Below are positions 8,109-18,080 of a stretch of DNA of 64,000 nucleotides, in pieces (positions within the stretch are counted from its first letter, which is position 1; every line of letters begins with the position of its first letter). The DNA is from Iocasia fonsfrigidae (GTDB lineage Bacteria; Bacillota; Halanaerobiia; Halanaerobiales; DTU029). The position numbers and the translations under genes are program-made. The notes under the pieces are model-generated. The model was not told the origin of the DNA. It was given only the letters and a program-made list of their open reading frames with translations, and searched no databases. The stretch covers positions 2,336,137 to 2,400,136 of the forward strand of contig NZ_CP046640.1 of the NCBI RefSeq assembly GCF_017751145.1. Direction: 5' to 3'.

Positions 8109-8916
8109 ACTGGCTGTGTGCTGTCTCTACTATTTTTTCTATCTTACGCTGCCACAAGATTGGATCTATTTCTTCCCTTGTTTTTTTCAAATGTATCAAA
8201 AATTCTATGTTTTTACTGCTAGCACCAGTTATTGGCGAATAATTCAAATTCATTAGAGCCAGACCCTCTCCCTGAAAAAAGGAACTGAGTTCATTAATTA
8301 CCTCTCTATGTAGCTTACTATCTCTTACCACACCATTCTTACCAACCCTATCTGGTCCAGCTTCAAACTGTGGTTTTACCAAAGCAACAATATCTCCCTC
8401 TTCTTGTAAAAACTGTACAGCCGGTGGAATGATAAGGCGTAAAGAGATAAAAGAAACATCTGTCACTATCAGAGGAACCTTAATTTTTAACTGATCAGGG
8501 GTAAGATACCTGAAGTTTGTCCGTTCAATAACTTCAACCCGGTCATCCTGTCGTAATTCCCAGGCAAGCTGACCATAACCAACATCTATTGCATAAACCT
8601 GTTTAACACCATTTTGTAAGAGACAATCTGTAAAACCACCTGTTGATGCACCAATATCAATGGCTTCTTTCCCCAGGGTATCTATTGCAAATACACGAAG
8701 GGCTTTCTCCAGTTTTAGACCTCCACGGCTTACATAAGGGGATTCCTTACCTTTAAGTTCGATTTTAGCTGTCAATTTTATTCTGGTACCTGCTTTATCT
8801 ACTACCTCACCATCAACTAATACCTTACCAGCCATAATAGACCTTTTAGCCTGGCTCCTGCTGGAAACCAGTCCCCGTTCAGTTAGCAAAATATCTAGGC
8901 GTTCTTTCTTGGCCAT
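8095..8916 (-). CDS. tlyA: TlyA family rRNA 2'-O-methyltransferase / hemolysin-like protein
   Basis: 273 residues. An N-terminal S4 RNA-binding domain (about 5-65, with LLTERGLVSSRSQAKRSIMA) is joined to an FtsJ-type methyltransferase domain with the SAM motif AIDIGASTGGFTDCLLQNG and VTDVSFISLRLI. In Mycobacterium TlyA methylates 16S and 23S rRNA ribose; the haemolysin name is historical. It sits between dxs and nadK as Bacillus yqxC does. The ATG at 8916 lies inside the 3' end of dxs (22-base overlap), and its 3' end overlaps nadK by 14 bases, so the three are an operon. Confidence 0.93.
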   Translation of the reverse strand: MAKKERLDILLTERGLVSSRSQAKRSIMAGKVLVDGEVVDKAGTRIKLTAKIELKGKESPYVSRGGLKLEKALRVFAIDTLGKEAIDIGASTGGFTDCLLQNGVKQVYAIDVGYGQLAWELRQDDRVEVIERTNFRYLTPDQLKIKVPLIVTDVSFISLRLIIPPAVQFLQEEGDIVALVKPQFEAGPDRVGKNGVVRDSKLHREVINELSSFFQGEGLALMNLNYSPITGASSKNIEFLIHLKKTREEIDPILWQRKIEKIVETAHSQFERG

Positions 8917-10805
8917 ACAGCAACCCCCATATCTGTAGCAGAAAACTCAAGTACTGTATCTACAATACCTGAGGTATCAATTCCGTAAAGTGATCTCATC
9001 ATCTCCTGAGAACCATGTGGTATAAAACTGTCTGGCAGACCAAGTCTCTTTAAGGAAATACCCTCCAGTTGTTCTTTATTAATTAATTCCAGCACTGCTG
9101 TACCAAATCCTCCATTTAAAACCTGTTCTTCTACTGTTACTACCTTTTTAAATTTCTTAATCTTAGCAACTAACAAATCCTTATCAAGGGGTTTAATAAA
9201 CCTGGCATTAATAACTTCAGCCTCTATTCCCTGTTCAGCAAGTTGGCGAGCAGCCTCTAAAGAAGGGTAAACACGGGAACCAATTGCTATTATCAAAATA
9301 TCTTTACCTTCCTTAACCACCTCAGCCTTACCGACCTCAAGCTTATTTAGGTCTTGATCAATTTTTACACCATAGATGTCTCCACGGGGGTATCTGATTG
9401 CTGCCGGACTATCTAAGTTAACAGCAGTATATAACATATGCTGTAATTCATTTTCATCCTTTGGTGCCATAAGGGTAAGATTCGGTATCGGTCTTAAAAA
9501 AGAAATATCAAAGGTACCCTGATGTGTTTCACCATCATTCCCTACAATACCACTCCTGTCAATGGCAAATACAACTGGTAAGTTCTGAATACATGTATCA
9601 TGGATAATCTGGTCATATGCCCTCTGTAAAAAAGAGGAATAAATGGCTACGACAGGTTTTTTGCCTCCCCTGGCCAGTCCAGTTGCCAGTGTTACAGCAT
9701 GTTGTTCAGCAATTCCAACATCATAAAAACGGTCTGAAAATTTTTCTTTAAAAATATTCAAACCTGTTCCCTCTGGCATTGCTGCAGTAATCCCGATCAA
9801 ATCATTATCAAGCTGGCCTATCTTAATCATAGCCCGGCCGAAAACCTCACTATAGGAAGGCAGTGCCCTTTCCTTCTTTCTTTCTCCATTACCTATTTTA
9901 AATGGACTTACCCCATGATATTTACTGGGTTGGTTTTCAGCAGGTTGATAACCCTTTCCCTTAATTGTGTTAACATGTATCAAAACCGGACCTTTAATCA
10001 TATCAGCCTTTTTAAAGTTATTAAGCAATTCTTCTATATTATGTCCATTAAGTGGTCCAATATAGGTAAATCCCATTTCCTCAAATAATATCCCGGTTAA
10101 TACTGTATATTTAAGTCCGTCCTTTACCCTTTCAATAGTCCTGGACATAACTGAACCTATCCTAGGTATTCTGCTTATTATAAATTCTATATCTTCCTTT
10201 AATTTATGAAGACGTGGATCTATTCTGATATTAGAAAGATAATGTGATAAGGCCCCTACATTTGGCGAAATAGACATATTGTTATCATTTAGAATTACAG
10301 TCATATCCCTGCCCAGATGACCAGCATGATTCAAGGCCTCAAAGGCCATACCAGCAGTTAAAGAACCATCACCAATAACAGCATATACCCTGTCTTTTCT
10401 CTGCTCATGGTCCCTGGCCAGAGCAAGACCAAGAGCTGATCCTATTGAAGTACTACTATGACCAGTCTCAATAATATCGTGAACACTCTCACTTCGTTTG
10501 GGATATCCACTCAAACCCTCATACTGTCTAATTGTTTTAAACTCATTTTTCCTACCGGTTATTATTTTATGAATATAGGACTGATGACCAACATCCCAAA
10601 TTATTTTATCCTGAGGACTATTCAAATGATAATGAAGGGCCAGGGTAAGCTCAACAACACCTAGATTAGAAGCTAAATGTCCCCCAGTATCAGCAACCGT
10701 TTTAATAATAAAATCCCTTATTTCAAAGGCAAGTCTATCCATTTCCTCATAGGATAAAACCTTAATATCATCTGGTGAATAAACATCATCCAATATCCGT
10801 CTCAT
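8895..10805 (-). CDS. dxs: 1-deoxy-D-xylulose-5-phosphate synthase
   Basis: 636 residues, typical for DXS. The thiamine diphosphate domain has YAVIGDGSLTAGMAFEALNH and the asparagine region ILNDNNMSISPNVGALS. The central transketolase domain has the catalytic Glu region DVGIAEQHAVTLATGLA and the C-terminal domain follows. It condenses pyruvate and glyceraldehyde-3-phosphate, the first step of the MEP isoprenoid route. ispA, which makes farnesyl diphosphate, lies upstream in the same cluster, so isoprenoid precursors and prenyl chains are made from adjacent genes. The ATG at 10805 is the base next to the oapA stop codon, indicating coupling with the OLE/oapA unit. Confidence 0.98.
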   Translation of the reverse strand: MRRILDDVYSPDDIKVLSYEEMDRLAFEIRDFIIKTVADTGGHLASNLGVVELTLALHYHLNSPQDKIIWDVGHQSYIHKIITGRKNEFKTIRQYEGLSGYPKRSESVHDIIETGHSSTSIGSALGLALARDHEQRKDRVYAVIGDGSLTAGMAFEALNHAGHLGRDMTVILNDNNMSISPNVGALSHYLSNIRIDPRLHKLKEDIEFIISRIPRIGSVMSRTIERVKDGLKYTVLTGILFEEMGFTYIGPLNGHNIEELLNNFKKADMIKGPVLIHVNTIKGKGYQPAENQPSKYHGVSPFKIGNGERKKERALPSYSEVFGRAMIKIGQLDNDLIGITAAMPEGTGLNIFKEKFSDRFYDVGIAEQHAVTLATGLARGGKKPVVAIYSSFLQRAYDQIIHDTCIQNLPVVFAIDRSGIVGNDGETHQGTFDISFLRPIPNLTLMAPKDENELQHMLYTAVNLDSPAAIRYPRGDIYGVKIDQDLNKLEVGKAEVVKEGKDILIIAIGSRVYPSLEAARQLAEQGIEAEVINARFIKPLDKDLLVAKIKKFKKVVTVEEQVLNGGFGTAVLELINKEQLEGISLKRLGLPDSFIPHGSQEMMRSLYGIDTSGIVDTVLEFSATDMGVAVWPRKNA

Positions 10806-11366
10806 TTATTTGTCACCTCTTAATTTAGCAGCGATTACTAGCCTGATTAAAATAAAGCCAGCAATAATTTTTCCTACAAAAAAAATAATTTCATCTGCGC
10901 TTTTAATTCCATAAGTCTTAAAAAATGACTTACCACCAACTGTTAAAGCAGCTACCAATCCTATGACAATAAGATTAATAAAACCCTCGGAACCACCCCA
11001 GACAGCAATTATTCTAAGAACAATAATTGCCCCGGTAGCACCACTAACAGTCCCACAGATATCACCGACAATATCACACATGAGACTTGCTACCCTGTCA
11101 GCGTGTTTAACCAGAAACAAAGCCTCTTTAGCCCCAAATAAACGTTTAGCAGCACGGGCATTAAAGGTTTTTATGTTGGCAGCTGTAGCAGCAACACCAA
11201 TCATATCACTTATAATCCCTATAAAAATTATTATTAATAATATTATTATTGCAGGAATCAAAGATACATGTTCTATCTGTAACTGTGAACCTAGTGTAAC
11301 CAGAATAGCAATCAAAAATGTAAGAATAGCAATTAATAGACTTCCTTTTATATTCTCAATATCCAA
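10806..11366 (-). CDS. oapA: OapA, OLE RNA-associated membrane protein (CNNM/CorB-like)
   Basis: About 186 residues with four predicted membrane segments: about 10-31, 36-58, and two in the C-terminal half around IVLRIIAVWGGSEGFINLIV and FVGKIIAGFILIRLVIA. The loop with IGVAATAANIKTFNARAAKR resembles the DUF21/CNNM-CorB core, and annotation pipelines often call such proteins Mg/Co transporter CorB. The decisive evidence is context: the gene lies directly after an OLE RNA and directly before dxs, the position described for OapA in Bacillus halodurans. Known: OapA binds OLE RNA and brings it to the membrane; the complex is tied to cold, short-chain alcohol and Mg tolerance. The start is TTG at 11366 seven bases after AAGGGTG, rather than a TTG 18 bases earlier that lies before this site. 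Confidence 0.85.
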   Translation of the reverse strand: MDIENIKGSLLIAILTFLIAILVTLGSQLQIEHVSLIPAIIILLIIIFIGIISDMIGVAATAANIKTFNARAAKRLFGAKEALFLVKHADRVASLMCDIVGDICGTVSGATGAIIVLRIIAVWGGSEGFINLIVIGLVAALTVGGKSFFKTYGIKSADEIIFFVGKIIAGFILIRLVIAAKLRGDK

Positions 11367-11394
11367 ATCTTTTTCACCCTTCAAGATTAATTAT

Positions 11395-11975
11395 CTTAGA
11401 CTGGATGGTAATATAACAGGTAAACACTGCGGCATAGGTCCAGTTGGTTTTCCCCTAGAATAACCTACTGTCACCAGTTAGGCGGTTTCCCTTTATTATT
11501 CCAACTGTAAGGTCACCCTATACAGGACTGGACTACCACTAAGACCACACTTTAATCCCTATTATACCTGAACAAATTGTTCAGCAGCCTAGAAGTTTTC
11601 CTTGACAATACATACCCATTTCCTAGCTTCTTTTGCAGTTCAGGTTTCCAGTAGAAGGAGGTATTTGTACCTGGTTCCTTGATATAAATACATTACTACT
11701 GTCCCCTGCACCACTTCAAAGCAGGCTACACTGCATCCATCTTGCAACAGATACAGGTTCACCAAAACACTGTTCCCACAAGCATTTTGGCCTCCACGGG
11801 AAAGGGGTCAACGCCCACATGCCATTGTGGATCGCCCCAAGCCCTTAACTCCCAGCACCAGCCCCCGACTGGGCGTCAGCAGCCAGCACCAGGAACTTCA
11901 TCGATATGCCCTTGACGGATTTTTAGGCCCGCCTTCAGAAATAGAGTATTGACTAGGATACTGCACCATCCGTAA
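11395..11975 (-). ncRNA. ole: OLE RNA (ornate large extremophilic RNA)
   Basis: The 626 bases between ispA and oapA hold no plausible gene but are clearly richer in G and C than neighbouring spacers and full of pairing. On the minus strand the transcript would start near ACGGATGG (11966-11973), whose complement CCATCC-A-GT appears at the far end (about 11400-11408), closing the whole molecule with one bulged A. Internal hairpins are visible, for example CTGAACA/TGTTCAG around 11570-11590 and CAGTTGG/CCAACTG across 11440-11510. Length near 580 nt, location between ispA and dxs, and an adjacent OapA-type gene together match OLE RNA, an abundant, highly structured RNA of extremophilic and anaerobic Firmicutes that forms a membrane ribonucleoprotein with OapA and other proteins. 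A covariance-model match was not run; the call rests on context, length and structure. Confidence 0.88.
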
Positions 11976-11980
11976 AAGAT

Positions 11981-12010
11981 ATTATAACACATATTATATC
12001 CAACTTTCAA
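11981..12010 (-). promoter_or_regulatory. Sigma-A promoter for OLE RNA
   Basis: On the minus strand TTGAAA (12005-12010) and TATAAT (11981-11986) are 18 bases apart. The -35 box ends exactly against the ispA stop codon, and the predicted start, about 7 bases after the -10 box, falls at the base of the closing OLE helix. This supports transcription of OLE-oapA independent of the upstream folD-xseAB-ispA genes. Confidence 0.75.
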
Positions 12011-12895
12011 TCAAGACTGTCTGATTAGAATATAGTCTATCAACTGTAGTAGATTATCTGCCTTTTCGCCAAACATATTCAGTGCTTCCCGGGCTAAAGT
12101 TGCTGTATTCTCAGCCTCAGCTCGCGCCTGATCAAGACCAATTAATTTTGGATAAGTAGCTTTATTAAGCTCTTCATCACTACCAGTTTTTTTCCCAAGT
12201 TTATCTTCATCACCAATAACATCAAGTATATCATCAACTATCTGAAAGGTTAAGCCAAGATAATTGGCGTATTTTCTCAGAGCATCTATTTCCTTATCTT
12301 CTGGGTCAGCACAAAAAGCACCAGCCAGTATCGCTGTTCTAAATAAAGCCCCTGTTTTAGCCCGGTGTATTTCCTTAAGTTCCTTAAGACCTATTTTCCT
12401 GTCTTCAGCTTCCAGATCTAGGACCTGACCAGCTACCATTCCATTTATCCCTGCCCCATCACTTATTAATTGAATTATCCTAACAATCCTCTCGGCTGGT
12501 AAGGAAAGATTAGCTAAAATATTAAAGGCATAGGTTAGCAAACCATCACCTGCTAGAATTGCAATACCTTCTCCGTAAACCCTGTGATTTGTAGCCTTAC
12601 CGCGGCGGAAATCATCATTATCCATACTGGGAAGGTCATCATGGATAAGTGAGTATGTATGTATCATCTCCAGAGCTGCCCCAACTTTAAGGGCAGAAAC
12701 TACATCACCTGCCAGTAATTCAGCTGTCATCCTTGTCAGGATAGGTCTTAGCCTTTTACCACCGGAAAACAGGGTATATCTCATAGCAGTGAGGAGTTTT
12801 GGTGCTATTATATTCTCTTCTAAATCCATTAGTTCATTAAGTACTCTATCTGAATCAGCAGCATAATCCTTTAATAACTGTGTAATATCAGTCAA
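12011..12895 (-). CDS. ispA: Polyprenyl synthetase, farnesyl diphosphate synthase
   Basis: 294 residues of the trans-prenyltransferase fold. The first aspartate-rich motif is in HDDLPSMDNDDFRRGK, the second in IVDDILDVIGDEDKLGKKTG; both bind Mg-diphosphate. FSGGKRLRP near the N-terminus binds isopentenyl diphosphate. It extends dimethylallyl/geranyl diphosphate with isopentenyl diphosphate, most likely to the C15 product. The ATG at 12895 overlaps the end of xseB by four bases. In Bacillus the same order xseA-xseB-ispA-dxs occurs, but here OLE RNA and oapA stand between ispA and dxs. Its stop codon abuts the OLE promoter. Confidence 0.96.
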   Translation of the reverse strand: MTDITQLLKDYAADSDRVLNELMDLEENIIAPKLLTAMRYTLFSGGKRLRPILTRMTAELLAGDVVSALKVGAALEMIHTYSLIHDDLPSMDNDDFRRGKATNHRVYGEGIAILAGDGLLTYAFNILANLSLPAERIVRIIQLISDGAGINGMVAGQVLDLEAEDRKIGLKELKEIHRAKTGALFRTAILAGAFCADPEDKEIDALRKYANYLGLTFQIVDDILDVIGDEDKLGKKTGSDEELNKATYPKLIGLDQARAEAENTATLAREALNMFGEKADNLLQLIDYILIRQS

Positions 12896-17993: not shown

Positions 17994-18080
17994 GCTGAAG
18001 TGGCGGAACTGGCAGACGCGCATGATTCAGGGTCATGTGGACTTCGGTTCATGTGGGTTCGACTCCCACCTTCAGCACCA
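17994..18080 (+). tRNA. tRNA-Leu (anticodon CAG)
   Basis: An 87-base class II tRNA. The acceptor stem GCTGAAG pairs with CTTCAGC and encoded CCA follows the discriminator A. The D arm contains GGCGGAACTGGCAGACGC, the anticodon stem is CATGA/TCATG with loop TTCAGGG reading anticodon CAG, a long variable arm TGGACTTCGGTTCA follows, and the T arm is GTGGGTTCGACTCCCAC. It is a single-gene unit with its own promoter and terminator on the plus strand, in an otherwise minus-strand region. Confidence 0.97.

Follow-up and report, generated by a model that had tools for sequence, protein, structure and literature searches.

A full-length OLE RNA locus with oapA in the LPS-diderm bacterium Iocasia fonsfrigidae

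OLE RNAs are among the largest conserved bacterial RNAs, and their biochemical function is not established. The initial annotation of a 64,000-nt stretch of the Iocasia fonsfrigidae genome (contig NZ_CP046640.1; hereafter, the window) placed a structured non-coding region of about 580 nt between ispA and oapA and called it an OLE RNA in a diderm host, which raises the question of whether the locus is a genuine member of this RNA class and, if so, how its particle would operate in such a cell. The covariance-model scan that the annotation had suggested as a check returned a significant match: using cmscan, the Rfam OLE model RF01071 (gathering score, 50 bits) aligns over its full length (model positions 1-616) to window positions 11985-11389 on the minus strand, with 481.6 bits and an E value of 3.8e-139. 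The likely mature RNA of ~575 nt would span positions 11974-11400 of the same strand. Besides OLE, a single Rfam match exceeds the threshold in the window, a tRNA gene at 17994-18077 on the plus strand, and a covariance-model search of the 3.93-Mb single-contig genome yielded one OLE copy. The minus-strand gene order is xseA-xseB-ispA-OLE-oapA-dxs-tlyA-nadK-argR-recN, with the polyprenyl synthetase gene ispA (12011-12895; PF00348, E 3.4e-61) upstream of the RNA and dxs (8895-10805; PF13292, E 5.1e-116), which is probably cotranscribed with oapA, farther downstream. The full-length RNA, the ispA-OLE-oapA-dxs neighborhood, an OapA with the DxxxD motif, and genes for OapB and OapC are all shared with Halalkalibacterium halodurans. 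Judged by sequence, the locus is a genuine, intact OLE copy of an already known class. As an instance it is unremarkable; what is surprising is the spread of OLE among diderms, together with a particle lacking bS21 and an excision scar in relatives. Among openly readable papers, we found none pairing OLE RNA with Halanaerobiales or Halothermothrix, and the 2006 discovery paper may already list such a case.

The Rfam model leaves the RNA ends unpaired, so that the closing helix P1 was tested separately. In I. fonsfrigidae, GGATGGT (11971-11965) pairs with ACCATCC (11409-11403), followed by bulged A11402 and then by the AC/GT pairs, so that the 5' arm ACGGATGGT occupies 11965-11973 and the 3' arm ACCATCC-A-GT occupies 11400-11409, both on the minus strand. 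Both anchors were present in 49 genomes, representing 39 distinct arm pairs, and in 47 of these genomes exactly 25 nt separate the 3' arm from a preceding GGACCTA-type anchor. Across the distinct arm pairs, 303 of the 312 cells for the first eight P1 positions (97%) hold a standard pair; 16 further pair types occur, and position 7 alone displays five (A-U, G-U, G-C, C-G, and U-A). In the controls, sliding the arms by one or two bases lowers pairing to 22-36% of cells, and re-dealt 3' arms reach 81% on average and 86% at most. Within the class, taken here as Halanaerobiia, the arms read GCGCATCGGCGGT/ACCGCCGATGCGC in members of family f89 and CAGATGGT/ACCATCTG in Halanaerobium-like members. The comparison shows that P1 is a real helix with compensatory changes; the arms and the bulged A are as the initial annotation had drawn them.

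The gene immediately downstream of the RNA was assigned to oapA on several grounds. Its listed open reading frame covers 10806-11384 on the minus strand, although the TTG at 11366, which follows AAGGGTG and matches the starts in relatives, is more likely to be the initiation codon than 11384. None of the Pfam and NCBIfam models matches OapA at the thresholds used, so the protein was judged on synteny, alignment, and fold. OapA is up to 75% identical to its relatives within the family, and the DxxxD aspartates D104 and D108, together with K152 and K156, do not vary across 37 aligned proteins. Among 59 genomes of the class, OapA is encoded in all 32 that carry OLE, whereas the 27 without OLE contain fragments of it at most. 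The AlphaFold2 model, run without one row originating from a plasmid record, has a mean pLDDT of 92.4 and includes long helices at residues 5-37, 42-68, 95-129, 133-161, and 163-189. It superimposes on the CNNM protein MtCorB over 130 residues with an rmsd of 2.4 and a Z score of 13.3, compared with 6.8 for the next unrelated entry, although mostly helical models easily reach middling Z scores and the Foldseek E value of the CNNM match is weak (0.05). Together, the model comparisons support a CNNM-like fold. OapA would thus share the transmembrane fold of the MpfA/CorB/CorC Mg2+ transporters but, unlike these, possesses the DxxxD motif and has neither CBS nor CorC_HlyC domains. The synteny, the invariant aspartates, and the predicted fold uphold the original assignment of the gene.

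The genes for two further OLE partners are located elsewhere in the genome. OapB is a 94-aa protein encoded between map and infA, with OapB itself (7k9b) as the best PDB match (E 1.4e-10); OapC is an 89-aa YbxF homolog encoded between rpoC and rpsL, with YbxF (4lck) as the best match. A search for the KOW domain (PF00467) was rejected as a route to OapB, as its three matches were interpreted as L24, NusG, and one further marginal hit, and gene position was used instead. In the class, OapB tracks OLE, being found in 25 of the 32 genomes with OLE and in 3 of the 27 without it (Fisher P 2e-7, with no tree correction). Within the genus Halanaerobium, four genomes (G165, G166, G168, and G169) combine OLE with no OapB match, whereas their sister genomes within it do encode OapB.

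Transcription of the RNA appears to begin at a dedicated promoter. A -35 element TTGAAA (12010-12005) directly follows the ispA stop codon and is separated by 18 nt from TATAAT (11986-11981), which is preceded by TG; the two elements match the consensus at 11 of 12 bases. The -35 element is conserved in relatives, with a TTG-type hexamer at a fitting distance in 25 of 28 class loci, and the extended -10 element TGTTATAAT (11981-11989, minus strand) recurs as TGnTATAAT upstream of OLE in all 28, compared with 0.4 expected and a maximum of 4 in 300 rounds of first-order shuffling. These data support an OLE promoter and bear out its early description as TTGAAA-18-TATAAT starting at the ispA stop. 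The start of the RNA would then fall near 11974, on the first pair of P1. A search of the minus strand between OLE and oapA turned up no terminator, so that read-through into oapA-dxs is likely beside the start that the RNA has of its own. The claim of a promoter belonging to OLE therefore holds as far as the conserved elements are concerned, but the same promoter probably serves oapA as well. In H. halodurans, by comparison, the cluster has been described as one polycistronic transcript (PMC12265935), whereas I. fonsfrigidae has a strong promoter of its own at P1.

This arrangement could also be taken to mean that OLE is mainly a cis-acting leader controlling oapA-dxs expression, with no trans-acting particle: the RNA lies directly upstream of oapA and dxs, and a promoter with no intervening terminator would drive the RNA and the genes together. 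However, P1 closes OLE before oapA, all the domain features are kept over great evolutionary distances, and OapB, a phylogenetic partner, is encoded elsewhere and yet tracks the RNA. Furthermore, in Halalkalibacterium, OLE is an abundant RNA residing in a large particle (PMC12265935). We consider a mere leader very unlikely.

We favor instead, with a probability of roughly 85%, the explanation that I. fonsfrigidae, an LPS-diderm, encodes OLE in full length along with OapA, the membrane partner of the RNA, with the particle working as follows. Transcription would start at the extended -10 promoter on the first P1 pair and could continue into oapA-dxs. The RNA would fold into domain 1 (P3-P9), which forms the dimer, and domain 2 (P1, P2, and P10-P15), and would be held at the inner membrane by the CNNM-like OapA, with OapC bound to the k-turn near P5 and OapB to P13. 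The particle would tune divalent-ion transport and stress responses, overlapping in function with MpfA/CorB-type Mg2+ transporters, and in I. fonsfrigidae would do so in the absence of bS21. By analogy with the work on Halalkalibacterium, we infer membrane attachment, dimerization, and a stress role for the I. fonsfrigidae RNA.

The elements implicated in dimerization and OapA binding are conserved to different degrees. The A-rich L4 loop CUAAAAAU (11919-11926, minus strand), corresponding to dimer bridge B1, is invariant in the class (30 of 30 members), and the AUCGAU palindrome near P4a (11900-11905, minus strand), which we assign to the published OapA-binding region, is present in 28 of 30. 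In the genus represented by loci L045 and L050 (G179 and G180), whose OLE-bearing genomes have neither OapB nor CorC_HlyC matches, this AUCGAU is lost. The L4 loop, the L5/L6 loop sequences, and the P3 stem are all shared with the OLE RNAs of Clostridium acetobutylicum and Clostridium botulinum, the dimers of which have been determined by cryo-EM. In contrast to these RNAs, the L9.3 loop of I. fonsfrigidae (11673-11678, minus strand; bridge B3) reads GGAACC, an imperfect self-kissing palindrome, and the same-family relative G163 has no distal P9 arm. Read from the alignment, because folding P9 from single sequences sometimes missed the loop, L9.3 alternates among GGAUCC, GGUACC, GGGCCC, and GGCC in relatives and is GGUUCC in G158, which extends the palindrome switching reported earlier (PMC12286853). 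I. fonsfrigidae thus departs from the perfectly self-complementary kissing loop, which is a feature of the cryo-EM dimers and not a condition of RF01071, and natural variants with shortened P7-P9 are still accepted as OLE (PMC11332333). The L9.3 contact appears to be relaxed in this family, and because the loop is imperfect, dimerization may lean on other contacts. Beside the P13 region, where OapB binds, lies the element GGGAAACC (11484-11491, minus strand), which is unpaired in the Rfam model. The Halanaerobium family has GAGAAATC in its place, and GGGGAACC is found elsewhere, a pattern expected of a 2-bp stem capped by a GNRA loop.

The I. fonsfrigidae genome also encodes a CorB-type Mg2+ transporter (L083 4306-5571), so that the OLE particle is not the sole candidate for Mg2+ handling in this organism. 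Of the 59 class genomes, OLE and a CorC_HlyC protein occur together in 21, OLE alone in 11, and CorC alone in 27, and every genome has at least one of the two; this complementarity has a P value of 5e-4 without tree correction and of 0.007 in genomes at least 90% complete. A simple division of the CorC proteins into OLE-linked types was considered and discarded, as most CorB-type genes follow the species in the tree and only those of G159 and G160 are far off.

The genus g128 illustrates a natural exchange. G158 has the ispA-OLE-oapA-dxs arrangement and lacks a CorC protein. Between ispA and dxs, G160 and G159 have a gap of 288 and 295 nt, respectively, and DNA comparison with G158 (L108 3428-4683) reveals a scar (L106 5666-5953 in G160; L107 4985-5279 in G159) in which the surroundings of the OLE promoter are kept, over 44 nt (95%) in G160 and 58 nt (86%) in G159, after which come an N-terminal remnant of oapA and its final codons, with the RNA missing altogether. 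The covariance model found no OLE remnants in these two genomes. Both encode a CorC-type protein far removed from the type inherited elsewhere in the class (branch 3.39, support 100/100). The two assemblies are 72% (G159) and 90% (G160) complete, and OLE loss may have preceded or followed the gain of the transporter. The exchange agrees with the published suggestion that OLE/OapA and MpfA overlap in function (PMC11332333), and a clean natural excision of OLE accompanied by a different CorC-type transporter offers a ready comparison for that proposal.

Such losses invite the thought that the I. fonsfrigidae OLE is itself a decaying copy, its function having passed to a CorB/MpfA-type transporter. 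The CorB-type gene is present, the L9.3 palindrome is broken, and relatives have lost the RNA. However, the match is full-length at 481.6 bits, and P1, P3, L4, P6, the P4a palindrome, the promoter, and all of oapA, oapB, and oapC are intact, whereas in G159 and G160, where loss is real, the RNA is missing and oapA is truncated. Decay of the I. fonsfrigidae copy is barely credible.

The composition of this particle likely differs from that in H. halodurans, where bS21 is a reported OLE partner that binds at P6 and is not needed for all functions (PMC12054373). The bS21 family (PF01165) had no match in a total of 52 of the 59 class genomes, I. fonsfrigidae among them; 25 of these 52 belong to the 32 genomes that carry OLE. 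The same search detected bS21 at ~1e-19 in the seven class genomes that have it and was positive in 6 of 14 control genomes. The P6 GGGG/CCCC stem and loop (11804-11838, minus strand), the counterpart of the bS21 site, retains its three inner G-C pairs in every one of the 23 OLE RNAs tested from genomes lacking bS21, with G151/G152 and C182/C183 of H. halodurans mapped onto the P6 pairs by us from spacing. A CCUCC anti-Shine-Dalgarno mimic occurs in P6 in none of these 23 RNAs, including that of I. fonsfrigidae, and in two of seven from bS21-bearing genomes. Thus, in contrast to H. halodurans, I. fonsfrigidae is an LPS-diderm with no bS21 gene found and no such mimic in P6, and its OLE particle would have to work without bS21. 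The earlier study (PMC12054373) left the question of whether it is bS21 or the particle as a whole that keeps the P6 nucleotides conserved. The bS21-less members bear on this: their P6 G-C pairs persist without the protein, which favors conservation for the particle as a whole.

The second peculiarity of the host is its envelope. Halanaerobiales are LPS-diderms (PMC5007114), and in agreement with this and with the diderm label of the initial annotation, the I. fonsfrigidae genome encodes LpxC and Omp85; LpxC is found in 55 of the 59 class genomes, I. fonsfrigidae included. OLE has been called mostly Gram-positive and is absent from Negativicutes, which led to the suggestion of a cell-wall link (PMC11332333), and the transmembrane proposal places domain 2 within reach of the Gram-positive wall (PMC12265935). 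In a phylum sample of 149 spread genomes, some of them metagenome assemblies, with the envelope scored by marker-gene presence rather than micrographs, OLE was found in 24 of 29 LpxC-bearing genomes and 87 of 120 others (P 0.34) and in 30 of 36 Omp85-bearing genomes and 81 of 113 others (P 0.19), with no association in either case. OLE is thus as frequent in the outer-membrane-bearing lineages as in the others and is not a Gram-positive feature. These counts do not back a restriction of OLE by envelope type and weaken the published hint of a link to the Gram-positive wall.

The question of how OLE is placed relative to the membrane centers on P3, the proposed membrane-spanning stem that joins domains 1 and 2. 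In I. fonsfrigidae, the P3/P3.1 helix (5' strand, 11938-11951; 3' strand, 11606-11622; minus strand) consists of CAAUAC/GUAUUG and UCUAUUUC/GAAAUGGG. Among 28 distinct class sequences it is 97% paired, compared with 34-44% for slid strands, with changes on both sides. From CTAGTC to the base of P4, 29 of 30 class members have a spacing of 14 nt, and genomes elsewhere, with LpxC or without it, mostly have 15 or 14. Alternatively to a membrane-spanning stem, domain 2 could be cytoplasmic, with OLE simply anchored to the cytoplasmic side of the inner membrane, a possibility that concerns this one step and not the identity of the RNA. OapB, which binds domain 2, has no signal peptide by eye and is encoded in a ribosomal-protein cluster, and in a diderm, domain 2 of a spanning RNA would face the periplasm; the occurrence of OLE irrespective of envelope type points in the same direction. 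Modeling based on cryo-EM, however, favors a bilayer-spanning P3 (PMC12265935), and the near-constant length of the 5' strand combined with its covarying sequence fits a length constraint, which is no proof of spanning. We place the odds of the tethered arrangement at even.

More broadly, it is possible, with odds that we put somewhat short of even, that OLE ribonucleoproteins are ordinary constituents of LPS-diderm Bacillota, that bS21 is dispensable to them, and that, should P3 span the membrane as modeled, they expose a structured RNA domain to the periplasm. If so, the role of OLE in stress would be independent of a thick Gram-positive wall. Diderm hosts also make the sidedness of OLE accessible to ordinary periplasm methods. 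The RNA is also encountered on a replicon of another kind: a full-length OLE (399.8 bits; L085 5118-5782), accompanied by oapA-dxs-tlyA-nadK-argR-recN, is carried by pMM59_01 of Pusillibacter faecalis (NZ_AP023421.1), a 504-kb plasmid record typed as conjugative and possibly a secondary chromosome.
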